Shown here in pieces: positions 15,152-61,117 of a stretch of 64,000 bases of DNA. The translations under genes were made by a program, and so were the position numbers. Position 1 is the stretch's first letter. The number at the start of each line of letters is the position of its first letter. The notes under the pieces are model-generated. The model did no database searches. It was not told where the DNA came from and was given only the letters and a program-made list of their open reading frames with translations. This DNA is from Conus ventricosus (taxonomy: Eukaryota; Mollusca; Gastropoda; Neogastropoda; Conidae): positions 14,400,972-14,464,971 of the forward strand of contig CM031622.1 in assembly GCA_018398815.1 (NCBI GenBank), in the 5' to 3' direction.

Positions 15152-15182
15152 GTCTCAAATTCTGTGGCCCTTCATGCCCTGC

Positions 15183-15830
15183 CAGACCTGTTTACCCCCT
15201 TGGCTACCCAAGTGTAATCCCAAATACTGAAAAGTGTAATCTTATGGGGGAAAAGTGTAATCGAAGGCGCTTGTGAGAAGCCGTGCCCACATGTCTCTTA
15301 CAATCGAACATTCCGCCATGTTCACAGCTGAAGTCCGACTTGCATATGCTACAATGCACATATCCCGGCCCTTTTCTTGATGGGAAAAGACAGTTATACT
15401 TGTCATGGTATACCTGGCGGTATTTTTGAGTAACTCGTGCCTTTTTTGGTTTCTCAGGAACTGTTTCTTCCATAACACGGCAATCAGAATCGTCGTCTGT
15501 CTCATGCTGAGCACGCTTTGACGCCATCTTTGATAATGATGTCAACCCGCGAAAGTTATCTCCCTTACTAAAACGTTCAACCTCATGCCTGCCCGCAATG
15601 CTGGCTTTCGGTTACACCGATATGAAGGAATAACTGAACACTGTAACTTTCGCAGGCGGCACAGTGAGTGAACGGGCCATCGCGTTGTTGAACCGACGAG
15701 AATGATTGCTTTCGAAAAGTGTAGTTTTGGCGATCCGCGTGGCGGAATTTAATGTTTGAAGGCGTAATGGCGTAATTGGAGGTTTGAAATCGTGATTTAT
15801 TACGCCAAAGGCGTAAAGTAAACAGGTCTG
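15183..15830 (-). mobile_element. hAT-like TIR element with 6-bp target duplication, copy A
   Basis: Perfect 13-bp terminal inverted repeats CAGACCTGTTTAC at both ends. The 6-bp direct repeat CCCTGC lies immediately outside (15177-15182 and 15831-15836). It is 648 bp long and holds only the first exon-like part of a transposase on the minus strand, so it is a deletion derivative. Left end contains three GTGTAATC-type motifs (15212-15262), candidate subterminal binding sites. Related to 21674-23096 and 59189-60258. Confidence 0.87.
15204..15527 (-). pseudogene. Transposase N-terminal exon with BED-like zinc finger
   Basis: Starts MASKRAQHETDDDSD at 15527 in a YY1-like ATGGCG context. A basic stretch (KPKKARVTQKYRQVYHDKY) leads to a finger with C-x2-C-x16-H-x5-H spacing (CSICKSD to HVGTASH), the layout of BED or hAT-type N-terminal DNA-binding domains. 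After the finger the frame runs into the terminal inverted repeat and stops at 15204, so the catalytic domain is missing. The matching exon at 59541-59917 has identical finger spacing and the same MASKRA start. Confidence 0.7.
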
Positions 15831-15836
15831 CCCTGC

Positions 15837-16326
15837 TCTCATGGTGACCTCAATTTCGATGTCCTCTCCACGTCTGTGGTCTTGGTTTGGTTCCATCGGG
15901 GTCACCGGTATCGGCGAGTCCATGGGGGCTGTCATTGGACGGACATGGTGGCGCCCTCCGGGAGAGCTCACGAACGCCGGCTCTGCAACTAAGCAATTAT
16001 TGTCGTCAGTAGGGGGCTTAGTAGGTGGTGTCCTGCATGTGTTAGATCAGAACAGGCGCCACTGAACACCACCGAAGTGACTCGGCAGCAGTGCAGTGTC
16101 TCCTCCAGTGGGTTGCCTCTTGACGACTTGACATTGACTGCTCCCTATGGATTGCCGGTGCTGGGGCTGCGGCGGGGCCGACCGGGCTGTGGCTGTGGAC
16201 GGGGTGTGAACGAGCGGCATGGGTGCACTGCCTCTGAGGAGGCGCAGAGGTTGGGACAGCAAAACAAAAACAAAAAAAAATGAAACACTCTAAACAAGAA
16301 AACACGTCTTTCTTCAACCTTTGACC

Positions 16327-16328
<2 letters not shown>
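15837..16328. other. GC-rich non-coding sequence, possibly an old repeat
   Basis: No convincing ORF. GC content is higher than its surroundings, and it ends in an A-rich stretch (AAACAAAAACAAAAAAAAATG) before the GA microsatellite, as the end of a retroposed copy might. I cannot assign a family. Confidence 0.3.
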
Positions 16329-16390
<62 letters not shown>

Positions 16391-16729
16391 CAGCTGGGCA
16401 CAGTATCTCACTTAAACCGAGGATGTCCGTTGTTGATGGCCTCATCAGGAAAAAAGATGGACCTAGAGGCTCCACGCTCAGGATCAGGAGAGGCAGAAGG
16501 GGAGGTGAATTCTCCCACCCCTAACCTACACAAAAACGTTCAAGTTTCCCCATAACAGGGTGCCAATGTCCTTTGATCCACAATCTTCACAGACCTAACA
16601 TTCAGATACAAATTTGTGTGTGTGTGTGTGTGTGTGTGCGTGTGCGAGTTGTGTATTGTGTACATGCATATGGGCAAGTGTGTGTGTAGTAGTACTTCAG
16701 TATTACGTCTGTTCACGTATGTGATATTA

Positions 16730-16788
<59 letters not shown>

Positions 16789-16991
16789 TGCATAAATGTC
16801 TGTGACTATGTGTTCGCATAATGTGATTACCTATATGCATGCAAGTATGCAAATGTCCCTCTAAGCAGTGTGTGTATGAGTGTGTGTATGTGAGGTGTGC
16901 ATGTGTATGTGTGCGAGTGTATTTTGTGTGAAGTGTGAGTGTGTGTGTGTGTGAGTGCTCATTTGTGTGTGTATGTGTGTGCAAGTGCATG

Positions 16992-17061
<70 letters not shown>
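16329..17061. repeat. Microsatellite cluster: (GA)n, (GT)n, (GA)n, (GT)n
   Basis: Pure GA run at 16329-16383, GT-rich 16613-16690, GA 16736-16789, and GT-rich 16865-17061 with a pure stretch at 16995-17060. The segment 16390-16612 between them is unique and featureless. Confidence 0.95.
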
Positions 17062-17062
<1 letters not shown>

Positions 17063-17415
17063 CGTGAATCTAGATTTTTACTCAGAACAAAGCCATGTTA
17101 TTTCTTGGCATCAAACTGTATCATGAAAATTAATGTGAGATTTACCTCATCCCATATTAATTCTATGCTTATCTCATTTTTTCAAGGTAGTTTCTTCTTT
17201 TTAGTTTTGAGCCCTTTCCCTAATGGTTATCACGGCAGGCAGAACTCCAGTTTCTACCAAGTAAGTATAGAAGAAAACAAGTGACAAACAATAAATAAAT
17301 AAACAAATAAACTAACAAACAAACAAAAACAGGAATACCACAGAATTAAGGGGGAAAACCCTTTTAATCACACATTTATTCCTCTGACTCAGTTTGATTA
17401 AAACAGTGATGCATA

Positions 17416-17489
17416 TGTACACTACTCAAATGGAGTACACTACTCAAATGGAGTACACTACTCAAATGGAGTACACTACTCAAATGGAG
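17416..17489. repeat. 18-bp minisatellite, four copies
   Basis: TACACTACTCAAATGGAG repeated four times head to tail. Confidence 0.95.
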
Positions 17490-18668
17490 CGAACATGAAA
17501 AAAGTCCTCACGGTTAGCGAGATCTATTGAAAGATGGTCTGTTTGCCAACAGTATAGAAATACACACACCACACAACAAAAGTTGGACAGCATGTATGTC
17601 TATGCACCACATCAACATCAAGTGCGTCCATTTTCACCACCTGATGCAAGAGCTGGAAACTCGACCAAACTCTGCAGCAAATTATCTGAAATATGTTCTC
17701 CACAGAATACAACGGACTGCATTTTGACGAAAGTATTCTTCTACTTGTGTCATTGGTCGATTTAAAGGGAATTCACTCTTACACACCAAGCACAAATACC
17801 TAGCACCCCCTACACACACACACACACTCACACACACAAAAGACATCAAAGCAGGCATTTTCATTTCCATGAAACAAACTTTGTCATCAGACAATAACGC
17901 TATAATCAAATCACCATCTAACGAAACCCCCAACCCCCACCCCCCCACCCCCAACACCACTTTCCCGCACCCACACACACAAAAAAAAAAAACATACAGT
18001 ATGAGGAATCCTGAAAAACATACTGGCTCAAAGAATTTGCTTGATTAGAACAACAAGACCACAAGTCAGTCTGATAAAACTGTGCAGCAGCCCACACAAA
18101 GTCGGCTCCTGATAACAAACGAGGAAAATGTTTTCACTGCCTGATCATCAAACTTTTCAACATACAAGAGACCCACACTTGCCTAGCTGTAACACTATTT
18201 CACTGGGTCATGTCATCTGCAGAAAAAAACAACTGAGAAGACACACCAAATCATATGATATTCGCTTACTCCAGGCAGCATGGCACACAAAGAAAAGAGC
18301 TTCAAAATGATTTCCTTGTATTTATCTTCCATGCTTGGAATAAAGACTAAATTGTGCTAGACTTGACCCAATTACCCCATGTTCAGGTTGAGTGCAGACG
18401 GCTGAATACGTTCATGTGTGCCCAACCAGAGGCAAGCAGCTGGCGGAAAAGGCTTTGAAAGAAATGTTAACAATGAGAAAGTGGGCATACTTATGTGAAG
18501 TCTGGAAAAGCTGCCACAGTTTGACTCTAGGTGATCCAGAGACTTGGACAAAATCCAGGAAGCAATGCACTTTCTACTACTGTAATCTTTGAAGTTCTAT
18601 TCCGTCCATTAGGAGCTTGAAAGTATTTTTCAAGGCCACCTTTGTAGGTCCACATCACACCACCCTAC
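17490..18668. other. Unique AT-rich DNA, no gene identified
   Basis: Only short scattered open frames and a CA/C-rich patch at 17811-17990. It could be intronic or intergenic. Confidence 0.5.
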
Positions 18669-18772
18669 CTCCCTCTTTGAGACTACAGAATCCAAGAGTC
18701 CTGACTTCTTCGGCAGCCCCCTGGGCACTTTGGAAGAGACTCCCTTGCTGGAAGCACCCTTGCCATTTACTC
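18669..18772 (-). CDS. Candidate internal exon, unknown protein
   Basis: Minus strand: a good acceptor (TTTCCTCCTCCCAG) precedes an open stretch reading NGKGASSKGVSSKVPRGLPK then KSGLLDSVVSKRE, followed by the donor-like AG/GTAGGG. Composition is Ser/Lys-rich. No domain is recognised and a chance exon is quite possible. Confidence 0.25.
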
Positions 18773-18842
18773 CTGGGAGGAGGAAATACTGATGAATAAA
18801 GATACAGAGAAAAAGAGAAGCATGCAAAAATAAAAGAACTTG

Positions 18843-19650
18843 TTAACTCTCTGGGGATGAAGGGCCCCTATCGGGCCCCAACTCGTACACGCATTTCAGA
18901 CGAAGGGCCCTGATCGGGGGTTTTGTACAATTTTGAATTTTTGGAGTAGCACCCGCCTCGCGGATGACATGTTAATCTAATTAGAATATCATTGACCTTT
19001 CCCCTTTCGAAAGCAGCTAATGGTTCATGAAATTTTCGCTGAGCGAGCGAGCCACTGGGCATTTTTGTTAGTCACTGTTCATCTGTTCAATATATGTCTA
19101 CAATGGCGTCTCAACTCAGTACTACTCCACAGCGAAGCCCAGACATATGTCGCTGTAGTCAGCGATTTATGGCCTTAGAAGTGTTAAAATCACCTCAGAC
19201 TGATGGTTCAGACATTGAGGAAGACTTTGACGACAGTAATGAGGATTTCTATTGAAAGTGGAGTTGAGAGAAGTTCCGATTCTGAACTCAGTCTGGCGGC
19301 ACCGATAGCTGATGCGAGTGACAAGAGTGGAGAGGGTGGTGGTAGTAACGATCGCACAACACAGTCCAAGCAGAGAGGACAGCGGGTGCCAGACATGACA
19401 GAGGAAGGGATTTTACGGTTCATGATGCAGGACCGGCATGAAGTGTGCCAGACATGACAGAGGAAGGGATTTTACGGTTCATGATGCAGGACTGGCATGA
19501 AGATTGTTTATTTGTTCTGCTGTGCCACCTTTCACTGGCTTACTCACATCACCAGAATGCCACACCCCTTCACTGTCTTCTTCGGCTGAAAATGCATCGT
19601 CTGCCACATGTGGTCAAGTCCGGGCTTCCTGGCAAGGTGCGTACATTTCA
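18843..19650 (+). mobile_element. piggyBac-like element, 5' fragment
   Basis: A TTAA (18843-18846) is followed by CTCTCTGGGGATGAAGGGCC and two imperfect copies of a GAAGGGCCC-TATCGGGCCCC motif, a plausible subterminal repeat. An ATG at 19103 opens MASQLSTTPQRSPDICRCSQ and then an acidic run (SDIEEDFDDSNEDFY), typical of piggyBac N-termini. One frame change near 19253 leads to SGVERSSDSELSLAAPIADA and PDMTEEGILRFMMQD. A 59-bp direct duplication (19387-19503) breaks it. No catalytic domain or right end is found; the 58-bp array starts where the rest should be. Confidence 0.5.
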
Positions 19651-19654
19651 TTGC

Positions 19655-21316
19655 GTTATCATCCTATAACTGTTAGGGCTTTTTTCTATCTCACTCACAC
19701 AGGTATCATTATGTTATCATCCTGTAACTGTTAGGGCTTTTTTCTATCTCACTCACACAGGTATCATTATGTTATCATCCTGTAACTGTTAGGGCTTTTT
19801 TCTATCTCACTCACACAGGTATCATTATGTTATCATCCTGTAACTGTTAGGGCTTTTTTCTATCTCACTCACACAGGTATCATTATGTTATCATCCTGTA
19901 ACTGTTAGGGCTTTTTTCTATCTCACACAGGTATCATTATGTTATCATCCTGTAACTGTTAGGGCTTTTTTCTATCTCACTCACACAGGTATCATTATGT
20001 TATCCTGTAAACTGTTAGGGCTTTTTTCTATCTCACTCACACAGGTATCATTATGTTATCATCCTGTAACTGTTAGGGCTTTTTTCTATCTCACTCACAC
20101 AGGTATCATTATGTTATCATCCTGTAACTATTAGGGCTTTTTTCTATCTCACTCACACAGGTATCATTATGTTATCATCCTGTAACTGTTAGGGCTTTTT
20201 TCTCACTCACACAGGTATCATTATGTTATCATCCTATAACTGTTAGGGCTTTTTTCTATCTCACTCACACAGGTATCATTATGTTATCATCCTATAACTG
20301 CTAGGGCTTTTTTCTATCTCACTCACACAGGTATCATTATGTTATCATCCTGTAACTGTTAGGGCTTTTTTCTATCTCACTCACACAGGTATCATTATGT
20401 TATCATCCTGTAACTGTTAGGGCTTTTTTCTATCTCACTCACACAGGTATCATTATGTTATCATCCTGTAACTGTTAGGGCTTTTTTCTATCTCACTCAC
20501 ACAGGTATCATTATGTTATCATCCTGTAACTGTTAGGGCTTTTTTCTATCTCACTCACACAGGTATCATTATGTTATCATCCTGTAATGTTAGGGCTTTT
20601 TTCTCACTCACACAGGTATCATTATGTTATCATCCTATAACTGTTAGGGCTTTTTTCTATCTCACTCACACAGGTATCATTATGTTATCATCCTATAACT
20701 GTTAGGGCTTTTTTCTATCTCACTCACACAGGTATCATTATGTTATCATCCTATAACTGTTAGGGCTTTTTTCTATCTCACTCACACAGGTATCATTATG
20801 TTATCATCCTATAACTGTTAGGGCTTTTTTCTATCTCACTCACACAGGTATCATTATGTTATTATCCTATAACTGTTAGGGCTTTTTTCTATCTCACTCA
20901 CACAGGTATCATTATGTTATCATCCTATAACTGTTAGGGCTTTTTTCTATCTCACTCACACAGGTATCATTATGTTATCATCCTATAACTGTTAGGGCTT
21001 TTTTCTATCTCACTCACACAGGTATCATTATGTTATCATCCTATAACTGTTAGGGCTTTTTTCTATCTCACTCACACAGGTATCATTATGTTATCATCCT
21101 ATAACTGTTGGGCTTTTTTTCTATCTCACTCACACAGGTATCATTATGTTATCATCCTATAACGTTAGGGCTTTTTTCTATCTCACTCACACAGGTATCA
21201 TTATGTTATCATCCTATAACTGTTAGGGCTTTTTTCTATCTCACTACACAGGTATCATTATGTTATCACCCTATAACTGTTAGGGCTTTTTTCTATCTCA
21301 CTCACACAGGTATCGG
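19655..21316. repeat. 58-bp minisatellite, about 28 copies, with acceptor-like motif
   Basis: Unit contains CTGTTAGGGC, then TTTTTTCTATCTCACTCACACAG and GTATCATTATG, with 58-bp spacing. Each unit carries a pyrimidine tract ending in CACAG/GT, a good 3' splice-site look-alike on the plus strand, and the array is preceded by a donor-like AAG/GTGCGT at 19637-19645. C/T variants (CCTGTAAC or CCTATAAC) divide the array into a left and a right block. Confidence 0.96.
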
Positions 21317-21667
21317 CGTACACACACACACACACACACATTTATGAAAGTAATTACAATGATAATTACACCATATTGACATATTCTCCTATTTTCAGGA
21401 GACAGCATGGGCGAGTAAAATAAAAAGAAAGCGTTTTTAGATAGATAATGATTTATCTGCAGTTGTGTCAGGTGCTGTTGCTGTTTGCAGTGGATGGATA
21501 GAAAACCAGTCTGTATCACCACCGCCAGGGTCAACCCCTACACCATGACAGATGTGACTGTGACGGACCATTTCCCGTCCAGTCACAAATTTTTATGCAA
21601 CCGGGCAAACCGGAAGGTAGTCGTCCGGATGCCGGTTAAAAAGTTTACCTGACTGCTGCTCACCTGC
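21317..21667. other. (CA)n and unique spacer
   Basis: A short CA run at about 21320-21341, then unique sequence with an imperfect hairpin (GTGACTGTGACGG against CCGTCCAGTCAC, 21554-21585). No gene seen. Confidence 0.5.
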
Positions 21668-21884
21668 GCACTGCAGACCTGTGCACCCCCAGCAAGACAT
21701 CCCAGTATCCAAGCAAATGATTTTCAGTATTTTGGGTGAGCTTTCAGTATTCTGAATGTTTCCAAGACACATATAAAACAAAGTGAAAAAGAAACACGTG
21801 AATTGCCCCGGTCACTCCTTTGTCATAAATCGTCCCAGTACAAGGTGATCACGATGCAGAATCTTCCGACACATCCGAAAATAA

Positions 21885-22500
21885 TCAACAGAAGTTAACA
21901 GTTTGTATGGCCGCACTTTGAATATGGAAATATCATATGGTATCCCTTACTCAAAAGGCAGTCAAAGGCAGTAGAGAAGGTACAAAGAAGGGCTACAAAG
22001 CTACTACGGGAATGCAAAAATATGGATTATGAACAACGGCTAAGATACTTAAACTTACACTCCTTAAAGGTAGACGTATCCGCGGTGATCTGATCGAAGT
22101 ATATAAAATATTTAATGATATGGTGGATGTACAAATAGAGGATTTCTTCAAATTATATACTGATAGTGTTACAAGGAAGCCAGATGGGAAAATCTTCATT
22201 GAACACTGTCAGACTAATAAACGTAAAATGGTTTTTGGAAAGAGAGTAGGCTAACACATCTTTGGAATGATCTACCAACTAACATCACAGTTTGCACAAT
22301 CTACTAACTCATTTAAAAATCTCCTTGATGCGGATCATAAATTCACTAAATTGTTATTTGAATTTGATTAACAAACCAATATGCGCATATGCAACAAACC
22401 AATTCAGAATACTAAACAATACATGGATGGGATTCAAGAAAGGCGCGAGCCTAGGCTACGTATATCAGCCTGTCCCCTACTACTACTACTACTTTAAAAA
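21885..22500 (+). mobile_element. CR1/L2-like LINE 3' fragment nested in copy B
   Basis: Plus-strand codons give the conserved end of RT-type ORF2: KAVEKVQRRATKLLRECKNM, YEQRLRYLNLHSLKGRRIRG, DLIEVYKIFNDMVD and, after a frame change, LWNDLPTNI. The end is a short (CTA)n run at about 22478-22493. Strongly 5' truncated, as usual for this group. Confidence 0.8.
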
Positions 22501-22559
22501 AAATGTGTTTTGGACAAGTCTATTATGTTCACAGCAAGTCACTTATTTGCATACGCTGG

Positions 22560-22684
22560 CTTGAACAGCTGAACTCTTTTTTTTTCCCCCCGAACCACAG
22601 ACTGCCGGTGAACTGTCATTCTCTACGCCGTTTGCCGCAGCAACAATCTCCACCAACACTTGTAGACGCTTCGTCATCCGCCAT
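22560..22684 (-). pseudogene. Remnant transposase 5' exon of copy B
   Basis: ATG at 22684 in AACATGGCGGATGACG opens MADDEASTSVGGDCCCGKRR. After a stop and frame change it reads GGKKKRVQLFKPAY, which aligns with KKGKRQQLFIP of the 59917 exon. No finger survives. Weak but consistent in place and orientation with the other two copies. Confidence 0.4.
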
Positions 22685-23102
22685 GTTTGAACGCACGCGT
22701 ACGAGATACGGAGCACGGCCGCAGTTGCGCATTTCATGACAAAGTCGAGTGACATATGCCAATGTAATGTACACAAGATAACTTCGTTTGCCCTCAATGT
22801 ATAGTCTGCTCATATGATATTATTATCATCTAACGGCAGGGCGAGACCAACGACTTCGCAAAAAAACATTTCGTTCACCTGACAACGGAATTGCATTCTC
22901 CGCGCCTGATTATGTCCCTTAGTTTCACCGCTAAGGTGACTGTGCAAACTGTCAATTTTTGCGGCGGAGATCGAAGCAGCCGATACCGTATTTCGGTGAC
23001 GAGTAAATCCGTATTTTGAGCGCACTATCAGTATTTCCGTATCCCCAGCTTAAATCCGTACTAAATACGGAGAAATACGGGGGGTGCACAGGTCTGGCAC
23101 TG

Positions 23103-27430: not shown

Positions 27431-27520
27431 TTGTTAATAATCATAATGAGGGTATTGACGGTAAGTTTCTGCTTTTATGTACATATTGTGAGTGCGCGCG
27501 CATGTGTGCATGCGTGTGCG

Positions 27521-27553
<33 letters not shown>

Positions 27554-27984
27554 TGTGGTGTGCGCGCGCGCGCACGCGTATGCGTTCGTGTATGTGTAAA
27601 ATTAAGACGCTTCTGAACAGATACTTCGTTCCGGCACGCGAAAATAGCTCACAGCGTGTTGTGGACAGAGACAATTCGCTTTTCTCGGTGTACCAGGGCT
27701 TAGCTGTGTGCAGTCGTGTAAATATTGGTCAGCTATAGGCGCGATACAGACACCAAGCAGTGTGTAGTTCGCTATTCTCCACGCTTTCAGTACTAGCGCG
27801 AGAAGCCCCTTCCGCCCTTATCTCCTGCAGCACTCCAGGGTGTCAGCAAGACCGCTAACAGTAACAGACCCAGCTGGTTGGGTGCGCGCGCACAATTTGT
27901 TTCTTCTGCTTTTCCGTCTCACGCTATTGAAGACTTTGACTCAAGCGACTTAATGCAGCAGTCAGAACTGCCGTGGACATCGTC
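27431..27984. other. (GT)n plus unique sequence
   Basis: GT/GC-rich microsatellite at 27490-27590. The remainder is unique, CpG-containing sequence without a convincing ORF. It adjoins the broken 3' end of the LINE. Confidence 0.5.
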
Positions 27985-28805
27985 CAGAAACGTACCAGAA
28001 ACTTCGTTAAAAATCTTTCTTTTCTAAAATCTTAAATCAGATGAAAAATGTTAATTCTCTCTCAAAAACTCGAGGATCACATCAGGCTCTTCATGGACCC
28101 CGCTGTAAAATGTTTATGTCTCACATCGTGCAAGTCCCAACACTCTAAAAGAACATGTTTCATTGTGAGTGGCGCATGACATGGAATGCACCACGGAGCT
28201 TCTTCACTTTTTAAAAAGGGTAAGAATGGGTAAAATACAAGGGCCGGTGTGCAGCCGGCACAAAACCCTTTTTCCTCTTTACGACCCTCCCGACGTAGAT
28301 GGGAGAAGTCCTTAAAGGGTCGGGACGGATCTGAAAGAGTTTGTTACTCGTCTGCGGTTCCAATCCTCCGGCCAGGGGTCTCTCACATAATCTTTAAATT
28401 TTTGGGGTTTCACGTCTGAGCAGGGATATAAATGTTGGACAGTTTCTCTCTTGGCGTTCTTGGCTAAACGACAACCATTTCGTTCCCGCCGATGCCAACA
28501 TGACCGGGAACCAAGCAAGAGTAATTGTAACCGTCCGCCTTCAACTTGCTAAAAAGTTCGAAGAAATGTAAAAGTTCTGGATGCAAAAGGGTTTGGGCGG
28601 CCAGCTATGGCCTCCAAAGCTGACAGCGAATCCGACAGAACCAGAAAGCCCCTTTTCGAAAAATGTGAGATTATCTTCAAGCCAAAACCAGAGCGGTAAG
28701 TTCAGCAAAAGACAGAAGCATCTGAATGAATATGTTCCAACAGTATCTGAGAAGAGCCCCAGGCAGTAGGCTGCACAGGCCACTCCATCTTCAGACTTGG
28801 AACCG

Positions 28806-32570: not shown

Positions 32571-32943
32571 ACAAACAGTCAGACCTGTGGGTAACAGGGA
32601 AAAAAAAAACTGCCACTACCAAGTGAGTTAACTTCACACTAAAAAAAAAAAACAACCTGCCAGTACAGAGTGAGTTAACTTCACACTTCCGAAATTTAAG
32701 TCACTGAAAAAATCATTTAGACTTTGCAGAAGAAAAATGTCCTCCTGTTACGACAGAATCAATTCAAACTGCTATTGCGTACCTTGGAAAAACGGTGAGA
32801 GAAAGAGGTACTTCGTCTTCCTGCAGCGCACACTCAATCTCTTTCCTCCTGAAATGAAAGTGTTATTTTTGAGTGCGTGCACATATATGCACACACGCAC
32901 ATGCGTACGCACGCATGCACGCACAAACACAAATTCTTACACA

Positions 32944-36055: not shown

Positions 36056-36500
36056 GTGACAGGTCTGCATGCATTCCTTTTTTCTGAATTCATTTATTAC
36101 CAAATTTACTTTCAAATATGTGAGTGACTGAATACAGTTACAACAAAAACTTGTAAACACTACTGAATCACACTGAACACCACTGGTTATTCTTTTTTTT
36201 TTAATTGTTTTCAGTATTTACATGTCATTTACAATGGTCCTCATCTGTGAACAATCACTCAATTTGTGAAGAAAATTCTTGTATCACAACTTCTGCCAAC
36301 AGTACAGAATACTAAACATAATGCTAAAATACATATTATAATGTTACATATTATAATGTTACATATTAAGCTAAGCTTTGTCAATATGTAATTTTGCCAC
36401 CTGCAAATAAATCATCACCCTGACACAATGTCAAATGTTTCCATGAAACGATGAATTGTACCCAATGTGTTTTATTTCTTCCCTATAATGAATATGTGTA

Positions 36501-38465: not shown

Positions 38466-38542
38466 TTCGAGAGACTTGTTTGAAAAGTGGGTTTTTGCAG
38501 TGTTGAACTCTCAACTCCAGCCACAGCTTGGTGCCTGAGGTT

Positions 38543-39500
38543 GGCCTCCCTGTCTTCAAATGGGCTGGAATTGACGGCTTCCTCTTCCCCTGTACAGTGG
38601 CCTCCCTGTCTTCAAATGGGCTGGAATTGACGGCTTCCTCTTCCCCTGTACAGTTGGCCTCCCTGTCTTCAAATGGGCTGGAATTGACGGCTTCCTCTTC
38701 CCCTGTACAGTTGGCCTCCCTGTCTTCAAATGGGCTGGAATTGACGGCTTCCTCTTCCCCTGTACAGTTGGCCTCCCTGTCTTCAAATGGGCTGGAATTG
38801 ACGGCTTCCTCTTCCCCTGTACAGTTGGCCTCCCTGTCTTCAAATGGGCTGGAATTGACGGCTTCCTCTTCCCTGTACAGTTGGCCTCCCTGTCTTCAAA
38901 TGGGCTGGAATTGACGGCTTCCTCTTCCCTGTACAGTTGGCCTCCCTGTCTTCAAATGGGCTGGAATTGACGGCTTCCTCTTCCCCTGTACAGTTGGCCT
39001 CCCTGTCTTCAAATGGGCTGGAATTGACGGCTTCCTCTTCCCCTGTACAGTTGGCCTCCCTGTCTTCAAATGGGCTGGAATTGACGGCTTCCTCTTCCCC
39101 TGTACAGTTGGCCTCCCTGTCTTCAAATGGGCTGGAATTGACGGCTTCCTCTTCCCCTGTACAGTTGGCCTCCCTGTCTTCAAATGGGCTGGAATTGACG
39201 GCTTCCTCTTCCCCTGTACAGTTGGCCTCCCTGTCTTCAAATGGGCTGGAATTGACGGCTTCCTCTTCCCTGTACAGTTGGCCTCCCTGTCTTCAAATGG
39301 GCTGGAATTGACGGCTTCCTCTTCCCTGTACAGTTGGCCTCCCTGTCTTCAAATGGGCTGGAATCGACGGCTTCCTCTTCCCTGTACAGTTGGCCTCCCT
39401 GTCTTCAAATGGGCTGGAATTGACGGCTTCCTCTCCCCTGTACAGTTGGCCTCCCTGTCTTCAAATGGGCTGGAATGACGGCTTCCTCTTCCCCTGTACA
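38543..39500. repeat. 57-bp minisatellite, about 17 copies
   Basis: Unit tag GGCCTCCCTGTCTTCAAATG; 19-codon open period on both strands. Each unit includes TTCCTCTTCCCCTGTACAG, a strong acceptor look-alike on plus. Copy-number slips of single C residues shift the frame in places. Confidence 0.96.
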
Positions 39501-47392: not shown

Positions 47393-47423
<31 letters not shown>

Positions 47424-49855: not shown

Positions 49856-50292
49856 AACTTGCAACCATCACCTTCCATTCCCATCCATCCTCAACTCCAC
49901 CGTAATACATGGCACATCTCCACTTGTGTTATCATACATCCTCCCTACCACTTCCCAACACACATACACACACACACATGCACAAACTTTTTGATCATCA
50001 CAAGACTACCGTACTAACCTTCTCCAACAGAAACACATATGCAAACATGCTTTGTGTGGGTGTGTGTGTACATGCATGCGTACATGTGTGTGTGTATATA
50101 TGTGTGTGTGTGTTCATGCACGCATGTTCAAACATGCATGCGTGTGTCTGTGGACAATCCACATTCCACATATCACCTCACAAGTGCACACTCACGACTA
50201 CACATCCTGGAGGCAAATGGAAGGTAACCCTGGTAGATTAGGATCTTCCTAGACCCTGGGAAACAGCTTTTCAGTACCTGGCTGATCCTCAC
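49856..50292. other. Intron-like DNA with a GT tract
   Basis: GT-rich 50056-50150; otherwise no feature until the exon. Confidence 0.5.
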
Positions 50293-50412
50293 CTTCGCAA
50301 ACTTCATCAAAAGGTCGTAGGCAAATGCCCTCAGATATAACAGAGTCCTGCTTGTATTCTGGATGTACAGCAACCAAGTCTCGTATCCAGCGGGCTGTGG
50401 TCTTTAACTCCC
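50293..50412 (-). CDS. GCLC: GCLC exon, C-terminal region (one-base frame break)
   Basis: Acceptor CATCTGTGCAG at 50413; donor GCGAAG/GTGAGG. Reads ELKTTARWIRDLVAVHPEYK then QDSVISEGIC, followed after one extra C by YDLLMKFAK, matching the end of animal GCLC (RASGE..ARW, HP.YKQDSV). The previous exon (62253) ends with one base of a Gly codon and this one supplies the other two, so the pair is consecutive. The extra base (about 50328-50332) would shift the frame; base error, allele or pseudogene are all possible. The exon holding the final residues is not seen. Confidence 0.88.
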
Positions 50413-51439
50413 CTGCACAGATGGTAACACCCTGGTCATGTTCTCTCTCAAGTTGTGTCGCTCAGTGCCCCGCCAGCCACACAAATCACATCAGGGCTGA
50501 AAGCACACTGACATCAGCGCTGGGAACAATTCAAAATGCCACGACCAAAACCTGGCTTTACACCACACTTGTCGTGTCAAGGGCTGACTGGGACTAGATT
50601 TTAGTCTCGGCATTTTGAATCATTCCAGGGTCTAATTCTAACGTGCTTCCACCCCTGATATCACGTTCTTCTTTTCTTTAATCATATCAATTGAAACGTG
50701 CTGGTCACCTTTGAATATTTACAATTTACTTCAGGTGGAAGATCTTTGAACAAGCTCAGCGTGGAATCTTTGGTGAAAGGAATTTTTACTACTAGAGACG
50801 TTTCAGAATATACCTACCTGTCCAAACAAGTGCCTCGTCCCTATTTGGTGTTGATGGTCACCATGTCATCAGGATCCCCCCCCCCCCCCCCCCAAAAAAA
50901 AAAAAAGAAAAAAAGAAAGCTCAGCTTGACTCTTTACCCAGCTAGCCAGAGGGACGGACTGCCCTTGGTGAGTCAACTTGACTGCATCATATTTGTACCA
51001 GCTCATTTTTCACATCTTTTTACCGACCAAGAATAAAGGTGCTACTGTTTGGACAATTACGTATATCATACACCTACTTTTAGTAGTAAAATATCTGTTT
51101 TCTCACACTTAACTGTTCAGAGAAAGGCCAGACTTCTGAAAAGGACGGTGGAAGCACGCTCACATTGATTAGGGAGGTACTGATCCCCCATGAGAACATC
51201 TCTGCATAACTACCTAAGCCTAGAACTTGGCACCAGAATCCACAGTAGGCCCTACATGATGGTCTCCTATGCTTAGTCTGGAGGTGAAAGGTCAGGTCCC
51301 TGCCGTCCTTCAAGAGAATGTCACAAGAGTGACAGGCAATAAGCGATCCAAAAAGAGAAAAGAATTTCTGCAGCACAAAGTCAGGAAAAGGAGAAGACCC
51401 CTTCCCCAGACATACTGGGAAAATGAGTACAGACAGTGC
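50413..51439. other. Intron-like unique DNA with a poly-C/poly-A tract
   Basis: A C-run then A-run at 50877-50905. Apart from a weak zinc-finger-like match (51269-51334) nothing is identified. Confidence 0.5.
51269..51334 (-). CDS. Possible C2H2 zinc-finger exon
   Basis: Within a 120-codon minus-strand open stretch, CHSCDILLKDGRDLTFHLQT followed by KH fits C-x2-C-x3-L-x5-L-x2-H-x4-H, close to the C2H2 consensus with Leu for the usual Phe. A single finger without splice evidence may be chance. Confidence 0.2.
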
Positions 51440-53402
51440 CACTCCAAAGACCCTGTCACATCAATATCAATGGTGGTGTGGACAAAGTGCAAAGACCCTG
51501 TCACATCAATATCAATGGTGGTGTGGACAAAGTGCAAAGACCCTGTCACATCAATATCAATGGTGGTGTGCACAAAGTGCAAAGACCCTGTCACATCAAT
51601 ATCAATGGTGGTGTGGACAAAGTGCAAAGACCCTGTCACATCAATATCAATGGTGGTGTGGACAAAGTGCAAAGACCCTGTCACATCAATATCAATGGTG
51701 GTGTGCACAAAGTGCAAAGACCCTGTCACATCAATATCAATGGGGTGTGCACAAAGTGCAAAGACCCTGTCACATCAATATCAATGGTGGTGTGGACAAA
51801 GTGCAAAGACCCTGTCACATCAATATCAATGGTGGTGTGCACAAAGTGCAAAGACCCTGTCCACATTAAAATCAATATATCAATGGTGGTGTGGCACAAA
51901 GTGCAAAGACCCTGTCACATCAATATCAATGGTGGTGTGGACAAAGTGCAAAGACCCTGTCACATCAATATCAATGGTGGTGTGGACAAAGTGCAAAGAC
52001 CCTGTCACATCAATATCAATGGTGGTGTGGACAAAGTGCAAAGACCCTGTCACATCAATATCAATGGTGGTGTGGACAAAGTGCAAAGACCCTGTCACAT
52101 CAATATCAATGGTGGTGTGGACAAAGTGCAAAGACCCTGTCACATCAATATCAATGGTGGTGTGGAACAATAGGTGCAAGAAGACCCTGTCACATCAATA
52201 TCAATGGTGGTGTGGACAAAGTGCAAAGACCCTGTCACATCAATATCAATGGTGGTGTGGACAAAGTGCAAAGACCCTGTCACATCAATATCAATGGTGG
52301 TGTGGACAAAGTGCAAAGACCCTGTCACATCAATATCAATGGTGGTGTGGACAAAGTGCAAAGACCCTGTCACATCAATATCAATGGTGGTGTGGACAAA
52401 GTGCAAAGACCCTGTCACATCAATATCAATGGTGGTGTGGACAAAGTGCAAAGACCCTGTCACATCAATATCAATGGTGGTGTGGACAAAGTGCAAAGAC
52501 CCTGTCACATCAATATCAATGGTGGTGTGGACAAAGTGCAAAGACCCTGTCACATCAATATCAATGGTGGTGTGGACAAAGTGCAAAGACCCTGTCACAT
52601 CAATATCAATGGTGGTGTGGACAAAGTGCAAAGACCCTGTCACATCAATATCAATGGTGGTGTGGACAAAGTGCAAAGACCCTGTCACATCAATATCAAT
52701 GGTGGTGTGGACAAAGTGCAAAGACCCTGTCACATCAATATCAATGGTGGTGTGGACAAAGTGCAAAGACCCTGTCACATCAATATCAATGGTGGTGTGG
52801 ACAAAGTGCAAAGACCCTGTCACATCAATATCAATGGTGGTGTGGACAAAGTGCAAAGACCCTGTCACATCAATATCAATGGTGGTGTGGACAAAGTGCA
52901 AAGACCCTGTCACATCAATATCAATGGTGGTGTGGACAAAGTGCAAAGACCCTGTCACATCAATATCAATGGTGGTGTGGACAAAGTGCAAAGACCCTGT
53001 CACATCAATATCAATGGTGGTGTGGACAAAGTGCAAAGACCCTGTCACATCAATATCAATGGTGGTGTGGACAAAGTGCAAAGACCCTGTCACATCAATA
53101 TCAATGGTGGTGTGGACAAAGTGCAAAGACCCTGTCACATCAATATCAATGGTGGTGTGGACAAAGTGCAAAGACCCTGTCACATCAATATCAATGGTGG
53201 TGTGGACAAAGTGCAAAGACCCTGTCACATCAATATCAATGGTGGTGTGGACAAAGTGCAAAGACCCTGTCACATCAATATCAATGGTGGTGTGGACAAA
53301 GTGCAAAGACCCTGTCACATCAATATCAATGGTGGTGTGGACAAAGTGCAAAGACCCTGTCACATCAATATCAATGGTGGTGTGGACAAAGTGCAAAGAC
53401 CC
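51440..53402. repeat. 45-bp minisatellite, about 43 copies, right part nearly perfect
   Basis: Unit tag GACCCTGTCACATCAATATC with 45-bp spacing. From about 52190 to 53400 some 27 copies look identical. Open in all three plus frames and one minus frame, giving apparent proteins of up to 796 residues that are pure repeat. Left copies have GTGCACAAAG/GTGGACAAAG variants and three irregular units (51740, 51860, 52165). Confidence 0.97.
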
Positions 53403-54195
53403 TTTCATACGCTTGTCACATCAATATCAATGGTGGTGTGCACAAAATGCAAAGTAACAAAGTGCACAAAAACACAAACGGCAGGCAGCGACAGTGCCAC
53501 TCCAAAGACCCTTTCATACGCTTGTCACATCAATATCAATGGTGGTGTGCACAAAATGCAAAGTAACAAAGTGCACAAAAACACAAACGGCAGGCAGCGA
53601 CAGTGCCACTCCAAAGACCCTTTCATACGCTTGTCACATCAATATCAATGGTGGTGTGGCCACAAAATGCAAAGTAACAAAGTGCACAAAAACACAAACG
53701 GCAGGCAGCGACAGTGCCACTCCAAAGACCCTTTCATACGCTTGTCACATCAATATCAATGGTGGTGTGGGACAAACACACAAACCCGGCAGGCAGCGAC
53801 AGTGCCACTCCAAAGACCCTATAGTCACATCAATATCAATGGTGGTGTGGCACAAAAACACAAACGCCGGCAGCGACAGTGCCACTCCAAAGACCCTTTC
53901 ATACGCTTGTCACATCAATATCAATGGTGGTGTGGACAAACACACAAACGGCAGGCAGCGACAGTGCCACTCCAAAGACCCTGTCACATCAATATCAATG
54001 GTGGTGGGACAAAAACACAAACGGCCGGCAGCGACAGTGCCACTCAAAGACCCTTCATACGCTTGTCACATCAATATCAATGGTGGTGTGGACAAACACA
54101 CAAACGGCAGGCAGCGACAGTGCCACTCCAAAGACCCCTACGCTGTCACATCAATATCAATGGTGTGTGGACAAACACACAAACGCCAGGCAGCG
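53403..54195. repeat. Composite 110-bp repeat containing the 45-bp core
   Basis: Units add ACACAAACGGCAGGCAGCGA and CAGTGCCACTCCAAAGACCC to the 45-bp core, with 110/111-bp spacing at 53480, 53590 and 53700, then shortened forms. The same CAGTGCCACTCC phrase occurs once at 51434, left of the first 45-bp unit, so the composite is the likely ancestral form. Confidence 0.93.
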
Positions 54196-54974
54196 ACAGT
54201 GCGCGACGAAACAGAACATCAAGGCCTGAAAGCGCAAGTGACATTCCAGAGAGGCGTTTGCAGCCTGGGCAACAAGTATAATGGGTTTCCCCTGAGTCAA
54301 TCCTCCATAATCTTCAGTCCTGATAGGAACCCACTACACCCTGTGACTTCCAATGCATGTACAGTGTCCGGAACGGCAGGCTCGCAAGGCACAACGGCAG
54401 GAGCCCAGACTCAGGTACCCTTACATCCGAACGGGAGGAAGCCCTTCTGGCCACAGACATAACCGGCAAATCACCTTCTAACCTGAGTATCACCTGGGTT
54501 TTCTCATAAGCAATCCCTGCTACGCAACAGAAGGAGCTCTGATCCCCGACTCTGTTCTCTGAAGGTACATCTTTATCAGTCTAACAGGACAGTTAACCTC
54601 CACCTTCAAATGTCGGCCTGGGACTGACAATGAAAAAGCTAGCGAAGCGGCTAGAAAGGAGGCATGGACGAATGACTGACGTCGGCATGCTGCTTTAGAG
54701 ACACAGTCAATCCAACAACTATTTCAAAATGTGTTAATCACCAAAGATTCACATCAATCTGAAACTATAAACATGTTGAATAGAAACAAGTACAAAAGCA
54801 TCAAATTATTACGATGTATCATACATCAGCTAATATCATTTTACAAATACTGCTGTGAATCAATCAAATGACGATCCTCAAAACAATCTCCACACTAAAT
54901 TGTGTATATCATTAAAAAAATACTATTTCTGTTCAGCTTACAACCAATGACTGTTTAGGATATAAGTAAATATC
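54196..54974. other. Unique DNA, nothing identified
   Basis: No exon, RNA or mobile element recognised. Confidence 0.5.
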
Positions 54975-55638
54975 TTTCACTTTTGAAACAGTCAGGAACA
55001 CGTGATTTAGATGGATTAGATGCAAGAATATTGAAAGATTCATGTCTAATAATCATTGATACACAATACAATTTGTGTTTAGAAAAACGTATTTTTCCTC
55101 TTTATAAATCAGGATATTCATCGAATCCTTCAATTATAGACCTATTTCTATTTTGTCCTTTCTTTCAAAACCTACTGAAAAACACTTACAGAAGTGTTTG
55201 TATTCTTACCCTTTAAAAAAACAATCTTATCCATGAAGATCACAATCAGGCTTCTGCGCAAACTACTCTCGTCATACGACACTCGTACAACTTATTGATA
55301 ATCTACTGTACAGCATAAATGAAATAAATTTACTGGCATAATATCTGTGGACTTTGAAAAAGCCTTGAATGTGACTAATCATTCCTTGTTGTTGTGTAAT
55401 CTGGAATTCTATAAATTATCTCCAGAATTCATCTGTCTCATGTCATCTTTCCTATCTGATAGGATACAATCAGTTACGGTAAATAATCAAACATCTCAAC
55501 TTTCGTCCATTAGATAATATCTAAGGATCTATATTAGGCCCCCTCTTGTTTTCCATCTATGTAAATGACCACATGTCTATGAACGCAAATAAAACCAAGT
55601 GCATGTACATGGGTGAAACCTACAAAACTTGATTTGAC
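54975..55638 (+). mobile_element. CR1/L2-like LINE fragment with TTGATTTGACT tail
   Basis: Plus-strand RT blocks over shifting frames: SGTRDLDGLDARILK (about 54990), PLYKSGYSSNPS then YRPISI-like (about 55100-55165), SVDFEKALNVTNHSLLL (about 55345), ICLMSSFLSDRIQSVTVNNQ (about 55432-55490), PPLVFHLCK (about 55540, the LGPLLF position) and KTKCMYMG (about 55593). The next bases AAAACTTGATTTGACTG look like the 3' tail also seen at 61935-61958, so the part between KTKC and the tail is deleted. Confidence 0.8.
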
Positions 55639-55639
55639 T

Positions 55640-55765
55640 GAAATTAGGCCGGGGTCCAGGGGCCGCCTAGGCCCCGGCGGGTACAGGGGCAGCGCCCCGT
55701 TGGGGGGTCCAGGGGGGCGAAGCCCCCCGGCGAAATTGATTTTTTAAATGTTTTAGGCCAATTTC
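55640..55765. other. 126-bp GC-rich palindromic element
   Basis: Ends GAAATTAGGCC and GGCCAATTTC are inverted repeats. The interior has two GGGGTCCAGGGG phrases (55661, 55706 area) and strong hairpins such as GGGGCAGCGCCCC and GGGGGGCGAAGCCCCCC. It is sharply GC-rich in AT-rich surroundings, directly after the LINE tail. Nature unknown. Confidence 0.5.
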
Positions 55766-57228
55766 GTTGGCTCTCCTGCACCAGAAAAGCTTAATTGTAA
55801 CATGATTTCTGAAGTAAAAAGCTTAACTGTAACATGCTTTTGTGAGTTACTGTTAGACTTTATGTTCCATTAATTCATTTAAATGAATAAAAATAATATT
55901 CATGGCTTTTTGTACAAGCTCAGGAAAGTTAAAATCTAAAAGTGTAGAAATAAACCAGAATATAAAAACTCAAAAAGGGAAATTTTTCTCACCCAATCTG
56001 AACTGATCAAAACATTCCAAAAATCAAAATTTCCCCCACAAATTGTTTAAAATGGTCACTTTACTATTTGAATCAAGACTGTGTGTAAAAAGAATATACA
56101 TGCTCACACATTTGAGATGCACAATGAGGAACCAAAGTAGCTTTATTCTTGCCGGCACCATTTGTCTTTTAAGTCCAAAGAATCACACCATTTTAAATAA
56201 GGAGAAATCAAAGTTGACATGTTGTCAGCACATTTTGTCTTTCCTAGCAACCACACCACATACAGAAAATGGATGAACAAAGGTGGCCTTCTTATCTTGT
56301 CAGTTCCTCTTGTCCTCACTGTTAAAAAGCCACCATATACATGAAGTATAATTCATCCTTTCAATCATTTTCAGAATTGTCCATCAATAAAGTGCAAAGC
56401 TGTCATCCACATTTCCATCATTTTCCATGGTGTCAAACAAAAGCAAGGACGAGTCATTATGATTCCAGTTGATTTTGATTAAGCAGTCATATATTATGAA
56501 ATTCTCTTGCCCTGTCAAACAATGAGTGGTAAAGAAAACTAAAAAAAAAAGAAAAGAAAAAAAGAAAGGAAAGATGAAGAAAAAAAAAAGTCTTTCAGTC
56601 CAGTAGTGGGCGCTTGAAAAACTGCCTGATGTCTGCAGCACCAGCTTTTCGTTTTCTACTGGAGCCAGGTACTGGAGATACATAATGGAGCAGCTGAAGA
56701 AGCAGACTGAACATGACAGGGCACAGATGGACATAGGCCTACAGATGTAGCAATGTTGACAGGTGGGGCTGCAGCTGGAAATAGGCTAGACGTGGAGGAG
56801 TAGCTACATTTTTTTTTGGCTGCTTGTGATAAATATTCCGAGGTGGGAATTGGTGAAATTAAAAAAAAAAAAAAGTAAAGTGTAGTGAGGATTCAGGTCA
56901 TTTCTGTTTTTCCACCTTTTCTTTTCCTAAAAAAGTATCATAACAAACATGATTTTTTTAAGGAAAGGAACTAAAAAAATAAATAAATAAACAAACAAAA
57001 TGAAAACTGACAACAACAAAACCCCCACTCAATAATAAAATTCTAAGAATCCCATCACCTCCCACCTGAAAGTAATATATAAAAAAAAAAAAAGGAAATT
57101 TAGGCCTACTCTTTAAAAAAATCCAAACAATAAAAAATTGGAAAATTTTCCACCCCTGATATACATTAAATTACTCCCACCCCACCAAAAATATCAACTA
57201 TAAGTATAATTAGCTCCCCCCAATCCCG

Positions 57229-57229
<1 letters not shown>
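55766..57229. other. AT-rich unique DNA
   Basis: A-rich runs at 56540-56590, 56860-56875 and 57080-57092; AAAAGCTTAAYTGTAACATG twice at 55785-55836. No gene recognised. Confidence 0.5.

Positions 57230-57276
<47 letters not shown>
57230..57276. repeat. Poly-C tract, 47 bases
   Basis: Uninterrupted C run; length is unreliable in any assembly. Confidence 0.95.
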
Positions 57277-57279
<3 letters not shown>

Positions 57280-59188
57280 CAACTTTTTAATTTGATTCTA
57301 ATTACTTTAGCAAAGAATAGAAAAATGTTAACTCGCCTTCATGTTTTTCTTATGCTCTGGGTGATCAGCATGGCTTCGAAGTTTCTTTTTTCCGTTCGCT
57401 CCGTAACTGATCGTTTTTTAACAAACGATGTATACAGAAACACGTGCCGGCCACATTTATTTTCTTGCACCACTTGCGATATTCATTGCCGTCGTCATCA
57501 GTTGTGATTTTTCGTGACACTGATGGTCTTTTGCACTCTGCTAAGTGTTGTTATAATTTGATGTCTGATCACTAAAGTCTAGTGTGCCATCTCAGTGTTC
57601 CAAAGCAAAAGTCGGCACCCCAATTCAAATGTGTTCGTGCCATTCATAAGATTGACCCTGCTAATTTTTCTCATGACATCGCTAACATTATCACGCCTGA
57701 CGTAACACTTACTGATTTGAACATTGGTCTTAGAAAAGTTTTGGATAAGCATGCGCCTGTATGTCAGCGGACGGTACACTGGCGTCGTCCGGCTCCGTGG
57801 TACAACTCAATTGCACCTGAGCTGCGAATATTGAAACGCGAGCGACGTCGAGCCGAGCGGCGCTGGGTATCATCTAGACTGACAATACACAAGCAAATTT
57901 ACGATGCTGCCAAACAGAAAGTCATACAGTTTGTCCATCAAGCCAAAACCGCTTTTTATTCTTCCAAAGTTGCAGCAGCATCCTCGTGTAAAGAACTGTT
58001 TAGAACTGTCACTAGCATGTTGGGTAATGCTGCAAGTGTTGTAATGCCGTCCACTCATGAGCCGTCACAGCTTCCTGGTTTGTTTTCTCAGTTTTTCGCC
58101 CACAAAATTCAAACAATTCGAAACGCTTTCTCCCCATCCTCAGATACTTCAGATCAGTCTGTTGTTTTTAACGGTACCACACTCTGTGAGTTCTTGCCAG
58201 TGTCCGAGCAGACTGTTCGTAAAATCATCACACAGTCTGCGAAAACATCCTGTGACCTTGACCCCATTCCCACCCCACTCCTCTTTGAACACCTTGACTC
58301 TCTCCTTCCTACCATCACCAAAATTCTTAACGAGTCTCTGTCTTCTGGCACAGTTCCCACTGACTTTAAGACCGCCCTTGTTAAACCTCTACTCAAGAAA
58401 AGCAGTCTTGATCCCAACGTTCTTAAAAATTACAGACCCATCTCAAATCTTCCTTTCCTATCCAAAATTCTTGAGAAAGTCATTCTTCAACAGCTCTCTG
58501 ACCATCTGGCCTCAAACAACCTCCTCACACCACATCAGTCAGCCTATCGCCCTGGGCACAGCACGGAGACCACCATCCTTCGCATTCTCAATGATATTCT
58601 AAATTCCTCAGACGAAAACAAAATTTCTGTCCTTCTTTTGCTAGATCTTTCGGCAGCCTTTGACACCATAGACCATGAAATCCTTCTCTCTCGTTTGAAA
58701 TACACATGTGGCATCAGGGAAACAGCTTTAAATTGGTTTCGTTCTTATCTTCTAGACAGGAAACAGTTTATTCAAGTGGGTGATCACCGTTCTGATGAAT
58801 CTAACCTCCAGTTTGGCGTGCCTCAGGGATCCGTGCTGGACCTGTCCTCTTTATTTTGTACACCACTCCATTGTCTAATGTCATCCACGGCCATTCCGTT
58901 TCACACGAAATGTTTGCGGATGATACTCAGCTGCTCCATTCCTCTGTCATCGATGACTACTCACCCCTTGTTTCTACTCTTCAATCTTGTACTTCTGATA
59001 TCGAGACCTGGATGTCAGCAAATAAGCTTAAATTAAACTGTGAGAAGACTGAAGCCATTCGTTTTTCAAAGCGGTCACATCATGGCCCTGATCCGATCCC
59101 TTCTTCTTTGACATTAGGTTCCAGCACTATTGAATTTTCAAACACTGTTCGTGACCTTGGTGTTCTCCTTGATAGTGACCTCTCAATG

Positions 59189-60258
59189 CATAGCTGCCCA
59201 CCCCCCTCCATAACTTCCAGGGACAACCTTGCCCAAAACCAGTATTCTGAAAAAATTCCAGGGACACTTATTTTACACGGACGTTTACACACGGACGTTT
59301 ACACACACACATCACAATAACGACTGTACAACACAAACTTTGGTACATGCATGTACTCACCATAAGCGTTTCATGATGCGGCACATATATATTTCTGCTA
59401 CAGTTTCCCTTCTTTGCATGAGGCTGTGATCCTGAACAGCACTAAAGTAATCCACCTACAAGTGCATCGCACACAGTCACTTTCTGGTTGAAAATAGCAA
59501 TCTTTACTGAACATTTTCAGTCTCTGTCTGTTTGAAAGTATTATAATATTAAAGTCAGGTTAAGTTCAACTGCTAGGTCAAGCATCATTATTTCAGCCCG
59601 AATCACAGCTAAATTGAACTTTTCTGAAGATGCAGAATTCGTGAAAAACGATGTCATCTTCAAATTAGCCTTCTCATTGTCTCGTATCTTACTGTTCTTG
59701 TGTTTGTCCGTAGCCACATGTCGTTTTATATCATCTCCGCCTCCTGAACCTATCGCTACATCACAAGAGCAGATACCACAGAAAGCGAACGTGTCGAGTT
59801 TACCTTGACTCATGAACGGCCATGTCTCCTTATATTTGGGATAAAAAGTTGCTGTCTCTTCCCTTTTTTGGGTTTAGAAGGCCCAGGTAGCGATTCCGCG
59901 GCACGTTTCGACGCCATTTTGCAACCAGGAAGGAACAGGTTACGACTTCGCGCATGCGTAGTGCAGGAGTTTGTCGAAGCCAAGATGTTGTCTGCTACTG
60001 TTATGTTCGTTCGTCTTTCGTGTTTTACTCGGTGTATTGTTGGCTATAAAGTCTGTTTTAGAGAAATGGATGGAAAAATAGTGGTTTTGGTCTTCACAGC
60101 AAAGATGCTTTGAATGTTTTCAGCGCAAAAAGGCATGATCGATGGCAAAATTTGATTTCCCGGGACACACTATCAAAAACAGTATTCCCGGGACAGGTGC
60201 CGACTTTTTACCAAAACCCGGACGAAATACGGGTACTCCGGGACAGTGGGCAGCTATG
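59189..60258 (-). mobile_element. hAT-like TIR element with 6-bp target duplication, copy C (inside the L2-type LINE)
   Basis: Perfect 13-bp inverted repeats CATAGCTGCCCAC, flanked by TCAATG on both sides (59183-59188, 60259-60264). Right subterminal region has CCCGGGACA-type repeats and ATACGGGTACTCC (60225-60240), similar in style to copy B. Contains a transposase 5' exon on the minus strand. 1070 bp, deletion derivative. Confidence 0.9.
59541..59917 (-). pseudogene. Transposase N-terminal exon of copy C
   Basis: ATG at 59917 in AAAATGGCGTC opens MASKRAAESLPGPSKPKKGK and RQQLFIP; a one-base frame break near 59840 leads to YKETWPFMSQGKLDTFAF and the finger CGICSCDVAIGSGGGDDIKR followed by HVATDKH, spacing C-x2-C-x16-H-x5-H as in copy A. 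Then KMTSFFTNSASSEKFNLAVI and RAEIM, resembling the post-finger linker of hAT-family proteins, and a stop at 59541. No catalytic region. Confidence 0.75.
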
Positions 60259-61117
60259 TCAATGAAACAGCATGTCACAAAAACTTGTCAGTTAGCTTAC
60301 ATGGAACTTAAACGAATTGCTGCTATTCGACCCTATCTCACTGAAGACGCCACAAAAACTCTCGTTTCATCATACATCCTTTCAAGGCTAGATTACTGCA
60401 ACTGTGTTCTCCTTGGCTGTCCCTCAACTGTCATCCAACCCCTCCAACGTGTACAGAACTCTGCAGCCCGTCTCATTTGCAAATCTCCTAGGACCCAACC
60501 CTGCAGCCCTCTCCTGAAAAAGTTGCACTGGCTCCCCGTTGAAGAAAGAATTAAATACAAATGTTGTTGTCTCTGCTTCAAGATTTTCACTGGCGATGCC
60601 CCTGCCTATCTTTCCGATCTCCTTCAAGTATATGTCCCATCACGAACGCTCCGCTCCTCCACCGACACCAGGACCTTCCGCTTTCCCAGTTACCGTCCCC
60701 ATCGTAAACAGCATGGAGAACGAGCTTTCTCATACGCAGCTCCCAAACTCTGGACTAAACTCCCCTATGACTTAAGACATTCTCAAACCTTTTCTTCCTT
60801 CAAAACCTCCCTGAAAACCCACCTTTTCAAACAATACTAAGAAGACAGTCATTACCAGATAGTTGATTGACTCTTGTTGCTTCTGTGGATCGCTTAGTAG
60901 TTTGTGCTTGTTGCGGCTGTTGTGTATTGTGTGTCTGTGCTTGAGAGTGTGTGTGCGCGTGGGAGATAATGGGAGAGAGCCTTTGTTTTTCATTTCTGAG
61001 CCGTTTTTCAATGCATTTTCTTTACATTTAGCAATTGTATTTTTTCTGCCTTTGTAAAGCGCCTTGTGCCGTGGAAGGCGCTATATAAATCCCCATTATT
61101 ATTATTATTATTATTAT

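Follow-up and report, generated by a model that had tools for sequence, protein, structure and literature searches.

Non-autonomous elements with 6-bp target duplications in the genome of Conus ventricosus and their relation to hAT transposons

Families of hAT transposons with target duplications of 5 and 6 bp have been named hAT5 and hAT6 (PMC12730594, in an excerpt citing Repbase Reports 2007); the source given there for hAT6 is Kapitonov and Jurka 2007, Repbase Reports 7:1192. In the same excerpt both groups fall within a lineage that also includes Blackjack and other animal hATs, and hAT7, like hAT5, is a group set by its unusual duplication length (7 and 5 bp, respectively, versus 6 bp in the elements reported here). 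An animal hAT6 entry, hAT6-1_NVp of Nasonia, appears in an excerpt of PMC3942097. Here we describe three elements, designated E1, E2 and E3, in a 64,000-nucleotide stretch of the genome of the gastropod Conus ventricosus (assembly GCA_018398815.1, contig CM031622.1; C28:14400972-14464971 in our searches; hereafter the window). The families of E1 and E3 combine a hAT transposase with 6-bp duplications, as hAT6 does; this likeness is one of description.

We consider E1, E2 and E3 to be non-autonomous, internally deleted members of young cut-and-paste hAT families with 6-bp duplications (hAT6), and assign this interpretation a probability of about 0.93. The first-pass annotation had presented them as its best candidate for an under-described system. 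The literature searched did yield few papers on hAT6 or 6-bp hAT elements, several of them unrelated, but such elements were named hAT6 in 2007 (excerpt of PMC12730594), and E1, E2 and E3 are therefore new families of a known kind.

Three elements with perfect ends and 6-bp duplications

All three elements lie on the minus strand. E1 (15183..15830; 648 bp) has 13-bp perfect ends (CAGACCTGTTTAC) and is flanked by CCCTGC at 15177..15182 and 15831..15836. E2 (21674..23096; 1423 bp) has 17-bp perfect ends (CAGACCTGTGCACCCCC) and is flanked by GCACTG at 21668..21673 and 23097..23102, while E3 (59189..60258; 1070 bp) has 13-bp perfect ends (CATAGCTGCCCAC) between copies of TCAATG at 59183..59188 and 60259..60264. 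These coordinates, end lengths and duplications, already proposed in the first-pass annotation, were all exact on recheck. The termini are CA..TG, and inverted repeats of this size lie within the range given for the hAT superfamily (5-27 bp according to the excerpt of PMC3517528). The ends of E2 match the left end of E1 at 15 of 17 bases, CAGACCTGT being common to both.

The window was scanned for exact inverted repeats of at least 10 bp, spaced 150-12000 bp apart and adjoined by direct repeats of 5-10 bp. This revealed five pairs: E1, E2, E3, 11460-13717 (10-bp ends, 10-bp repeat) and 55608-61530. With stricter settings (ends of at least 13 bp, 6-bp repeats, at most 8000 bp apart) E1, E2 and E3 were the three pairs detected, versus none in 200 first-order Markov shuffles. 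A copy of CAGACCTGT at 32580, with a partner ending at 36067, was rejected as a further element: its ends are 9 bp long, it has no 6-bp duplication and an assembly gap lies inside.

The insertion of E3 with a 6-bp duplication has separate proof. The element interrupts the reverse-transcriptase region of a long interspersed nuclear element (LINE; 57582..60840, plus strand; RVT_1, E 6e-20 for 57582-59033), which is broken elsewhere. In silico removal of E3 and one TCAATG joined frame 58856-59188 to 60265-60840, restoring a frame of 302 codons that crosses the insertion point and ends with a stop at 60840. Both the LINE and E3 lie within the pair 55608-61530, which has 12-bp inverted ends CATGGGTGAAAC and a 6-bp direct repeat, CATGTA. 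This may be a further element of the 6-bp kind; against that, the flanking sequence is repetitive and there is an assembly gap (61401-61500) close to the right end.

Copy families and target sites in the genome

The genome searched comprises 3.52 Gb. Each search scored 40 candidates, including the window copy, and the family counts are lower bounds. For E1, 40 of 290 first-look candidates were scored, and the main matches are 99-100% identical; at least 3 extend over 647-648 bp and 37 over about positions 87-648. In many of the partial matches the missing end lies about 500-670 bp further on, and the fetched copies are 1146-1230 bp long. The E3 search (40 of 126 candidates scored) gave main matches of 98-100% identity, at least 8 of which span the whole 1070 bp. 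The scored E2 copies (40 of 197 candidates) are 95-98% identical to the window copy, and 20 of 23 aligned copies diverge from the family consensus by 0.35-1.56% (the other three rows were dropped as wrongly oriented). Such low divergence suggests that the families are young and were recently amplified.

Target duplications were surveyed at 72 loci (10 E1, 30 E2 and 32 E3, two of the E3 loci holding copies also present in two others). An exact end pair was found at 54 loci, 50 of which have an exact 6-bp duplication. No pair was present within the stretch examined at the remaining 18 (one E1, seven E2 and ten E3 loci); two of these ten E3 loci are copies seen in full as L050 and L051, both with 6-bp duplications. 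Four E1 loci were added, two of them paired and flanked by 6-bp duplications (L086, GAATAG; L087, GGAAAG) and two (L084 and L085) without a right end within the stretch examined. In total, 52 of 56 paired copies carry a 6-bp duplication, and when lengths of 1-14 were tried all 52 gave 6. An 8-bp duplication, which is usual in the Ac, Buster and Tip groups of hAT and had been named beforehand as evidence against a 6-bp group, was seen in none of the 56.

Locus L025 was scored in the 72-locus survey on an outer, related element flanked by TCTCTA. The E3 copy at this locus likewise has a 6-bp duplication, AAAATA, and both are counted in the 51 target sites collected. The outer element (756-2842 of L025) has the ends CATAGCTGCCAAC, and the E3 copy is inserted within it.

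All 51 target sites are different, which indicates independent insertions. Together they form a weak palindromic pattern, about TnACATATGTnA. We judge it weak because its score on its own source sites is circular and the cross-family tests were marginal: values rose above the background maximum in three of four directions, in two of them barely, and prediction from E3 to E1 failed. The sites show no significant enrichment of a central TA (5/51, p 0.11), in contrast to the 8-bp nnnTAnnn duplications of the Mar miniature inverted-repeat transposable elements of Drosophila (Buster group of hAT; excerpt of PMC3517528).

Transposase and origin of the shortened copies

A complete relative was recovered for E3. 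At ten E3-family loci the far end was absent within 1500 bases; nine of these agree at about 99% over 2.2 kb and extend into coding DNA beyond the point at which the window copy is deleted, whereas in the tenth (L029) the match is confined to the first 828 bases. The reading frame is open as far as the sequence was examined (622 codons) in four of the ten and broken earlier in six. One member of the family, L051, is 2787 bp long and has both ends, GTATTA duplications and a single uninterrupted frame of 677 codons. Bases 1-707 and 2419-2787 of this element are retained in the window copy of E3, which differs from it by a plain internal deletion of 1.7 kb. The first-pass annotation had described the residual coding piece as a captured exon; since this piece is contiguous in the full-length element, nothing was captured, and the gene has no interruption. 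Its view of the elements as internally deleted derivatives was borne out for the E3 and E1 families. Mar elements are likewise described as short derivatives of full-length hAT copies that lost internal sequence (excerpt of PMC3517528).

One of the open-frame E3 loci (L031, extended as L050; G000:C17:48924900-48929500) has its transposase interrupted further on by a nested element beginning CAGGGATGAAAAC (about element bases 2255-3821). A script assigned this insertion a 6-bp duplication, GGACAC, with unequal ends; by eye, with equal ends, the duplication is 5 bp (GACAC), the hAT5 length, if CAGGG..CCCTG is taken, and 7 bp (GGACACC) with AGGG..CCCT. The nested element carries another finger-like stretch.

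The L051 frame matches PF05699, the hAT C-terminal dimerisation region (E 1e-6; 28.9 bits versus a cut-off of 21.4), as does the C-terminal frame of L053 in the E1 family (E 2.1e-12; 47.1 bits). L053 (1786 bp; 6-bp duplication TAACAG on the reverse strand) contains the N-terminus with the finger, an internal gap and then the C-terminus, and two further E1-family loci, L084 and L087, retain other middle parts of the transposase. The N-terminal, middle and C-terminal pieces of E1 match the E3 transposase with E values of 1.2e-13, 1.2e-19 and 6.5e-19, respectively (121-protein set). E3 (whole) and E1 (from pieces) thus share one catalytic protein and not unrelated catalytic domains, the outcome stated in advance as incompatible with a single group. 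According to a structure model of a homologue, the E3-type transposase has a DDE/RNase-H domain with the hAT-type fold, resembling Hermes, with about 16% identity in the structural alignment. Hermes makes 8-bp duplications, versus 6 bp in E1, E2 and E3.

The nearest relatives of the L051 transposase, found with the full-length protein as query, are gastropod proteins. The hAT-like protein BaRGS_00003805 (P0001) of Batillaria attramentaria, which contains PF05699, is 64% identical over 97% of the L051 transposase; other relatives come from molluscs, spiders and sea urchins and, like P0001, are known here from protein records alone. The N-terminal pieces on their own gave no matches in Pfam, PDB (E1 piece only) or the protein database. 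As candidate virus-borne relatives, 11 IMG/VR stretches containing CAGACCTGTKYACCCCC were inspected and rejected, no paired end with a 6-bp repeat being present there when exact CAGGTCTG was looked for.

The window copies retain the start of this coding region on the minus strand to different extents. As had been noted, ATGGCG starts are present in all three (15527 in E1, 22684 in E2 and 59917 in E3). The E1 frame (15204..15527) comprises 107 codons and extends beyond the deletion junction at about 15270; it includes a zinc-finger-like stretch (15270..15356; HCSICKSDFSCEHGG...RHVGTASHK), and the N-terminal piece aligns with the E3 N-terminus with a score of 95, versus a best of 54 among 2000 shuffles. 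In E3 the residual transposase start (59556..59917) extends from the ATG at 59917 as far as the deletion junction, near 59556. The frame is broken 35 codons after the ATG, and the finger (59697..59783; FCGICSCDVAIGSGGGDDIKRHVATDKHK) comes later, in another frame. The E2 frame (22616..22684; MADDEASTSVGGDCCCGKRRRE) has 22 codons and lacks the finger, so the statement that the derivatives keep promoter and finger was too strong. Across 46 homologues two histidine columns of the finger-like stretch are invariant and the two cysteine columns nearly so.

A full-length element such as that in L051 encodes a single transposase of 677 amino acids with (i) an N-terminal C2H2/BED-like finger, (ii) an RNase-H-type DDE catalytic core with a hAT helical insertion and (iii) the hAT C-terminal dimerisation region. 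The finger and the adjoining region may bind the element ends. The core would cut both ends and join them to the two target strands with an offset of six bases, and gap repair would then leave the 6-bp duplications. The internal deletions probably result from faulty repair of donor gaps, and the shortened E1 and E3 copies, which retain their ends (about 560-700 bp at the 5′ side and about 90-370 bp at the 3′ side), are likely to be moved in trans by transposase supplied from elsewhere.

In E2, a LINE-like fragment with a (TAC)n tail (21890..22494, plus strand; approximate bounds, by eye) forms part of the family consensus; from its sequence, we take it to be a LINE 3′ end. Two loci, L064 and L074, were rejected as sources of the E2 transposase: both leave the E2 form early, and on visual inspection the continuation resembled a further inserted repeat. 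After different points in E2 they run into a shared sequence starting CAGAGATGGG, probably another repeat family. Elsewhere in the window, repetitive translations in several frames of the open reading frame list (654-1799, 38528-39311 and 51269-54462) point to long tandem repeats, not genes.

Alternative explanations and significance

Duplications of 6 bp are also usual for IS3EU (excerpts of PMC12730594 and PMC10045372), and mobilisation of E1, E2 and E3 by IS3EU/GingerRoot or Dada, another superfamily, was therefore considered. IS3EU has TA..TA ends, exceeding 30 bp in the rust-fungus families described (same excerpts), whereas those found here are CA..TG and 13-17 bp long; GingerRoot termini are also TA..TA, occasionally TG..CA (PMC10045372, excerpt). 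With a hAT dimerisation region in the E3 and E1 transposases and a Hermes-like fold in the E3 type, IS3EU/GingerRoot is already contradicted for E1 and E3, and an origin from any of these superfamilies is most improbable. A retained function of the 5′ coding pieces, e.g. in a finger protein acting to repress or assist transposition, is hardly more credible: the scored E1 and E3 matches do include the 5′ part with the finger (query 87-648 and 368-1070), but the E3 frame is broken before the finger, E2 lacks it, and in the full-length element the piece is continuous with the rest of the gene; it also adjoins the 5′ end, which is needed for transposition anyway.

More weight attaches to the possibility that E2 is of another transposase lineage than E1 and is moved by a separate enzyme, the CAGACCTGT ends and the 6-bp duplications being shared. 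Beyond the first 17 end bases E2 is unlike E1, with no match between them in alignment, the finger is absent from E2 and no full-length E2 copy was found. On the other hand, the two elements have 15 of 17 end bases in common, 19 of 23 paired E2 copies show the same 6-bp duplication, and the family consensus encodes MADDEASTSVGGDCCCGKRRRDDSSPAVCGSGEKKK, then KKKRVQLFKPAYANK in a neighbouring frame, resembling the part of P0086, a Nucella hAT protein, that precedes its finger. We regard a separate E2 lineage as unlikely. As no E2 transposase was recovered, the placement of E2 in hAT is less direct than that of E1 and E3: E2 shares with hAT6 the duplication length, while E1 and E3 have both the hAT transposase and the 6-bp duplication. 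The proposal of one hAT-like group with 6-bp targets thus holds for the E3 and E1 families and is unproven for the E2 transposase.

Several observations weigh against the hAT6 interpretation. Four of the 23 paired E2 copies have no exact 6-bp repeat, and the end pair was not found in the stretch examined at 3 of 14 E1 loci (L014, L084 and L085) and 7 of 30 E2 loci. A full-length copy, L051, represents E3, and none was recovered for E1 or E2 among the loci examined. The similarity of the 48-amino-acid N-terminal remnant of E2 to P0086 (48% over 25 amino acids; E 2.4e-4, 121-protein set) was obtained with a query written across two frames. The protein modelled is a homologue from outside the family found in the window, and direct sequence similarity to Hermes is weak (E 0.14). 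Finally, the hAT6 label refers to the hAT transposase and the 6-bp duplication and would not by itself imply descent from the named Repbase group.

Assignment of E1, E2 and E3 to hAT6 brings well-documented young families into a branch of hAT on which little has been described. Beyond the question of spacing, this is ordinary transposon biology. We tentatively suggest that there may be a distinct 6-bp hAT branch with an N-terminal C2H2-like finger, present in molluscs and other invertebrates and having its own weak palindromic target pattern unlike that of Buster. In that case, the shift of strand-transfer spacing from 8 to 6 bases would have become fixed in one hAT clade and could be explained in structural terms. 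In L051 the frame is unbroken, both ends are present and a target duplication flanks the element; because Hermes structures exist for comparison, this full-length copy offers a direct way to ask what sets 6- versus 8-bp spacing.

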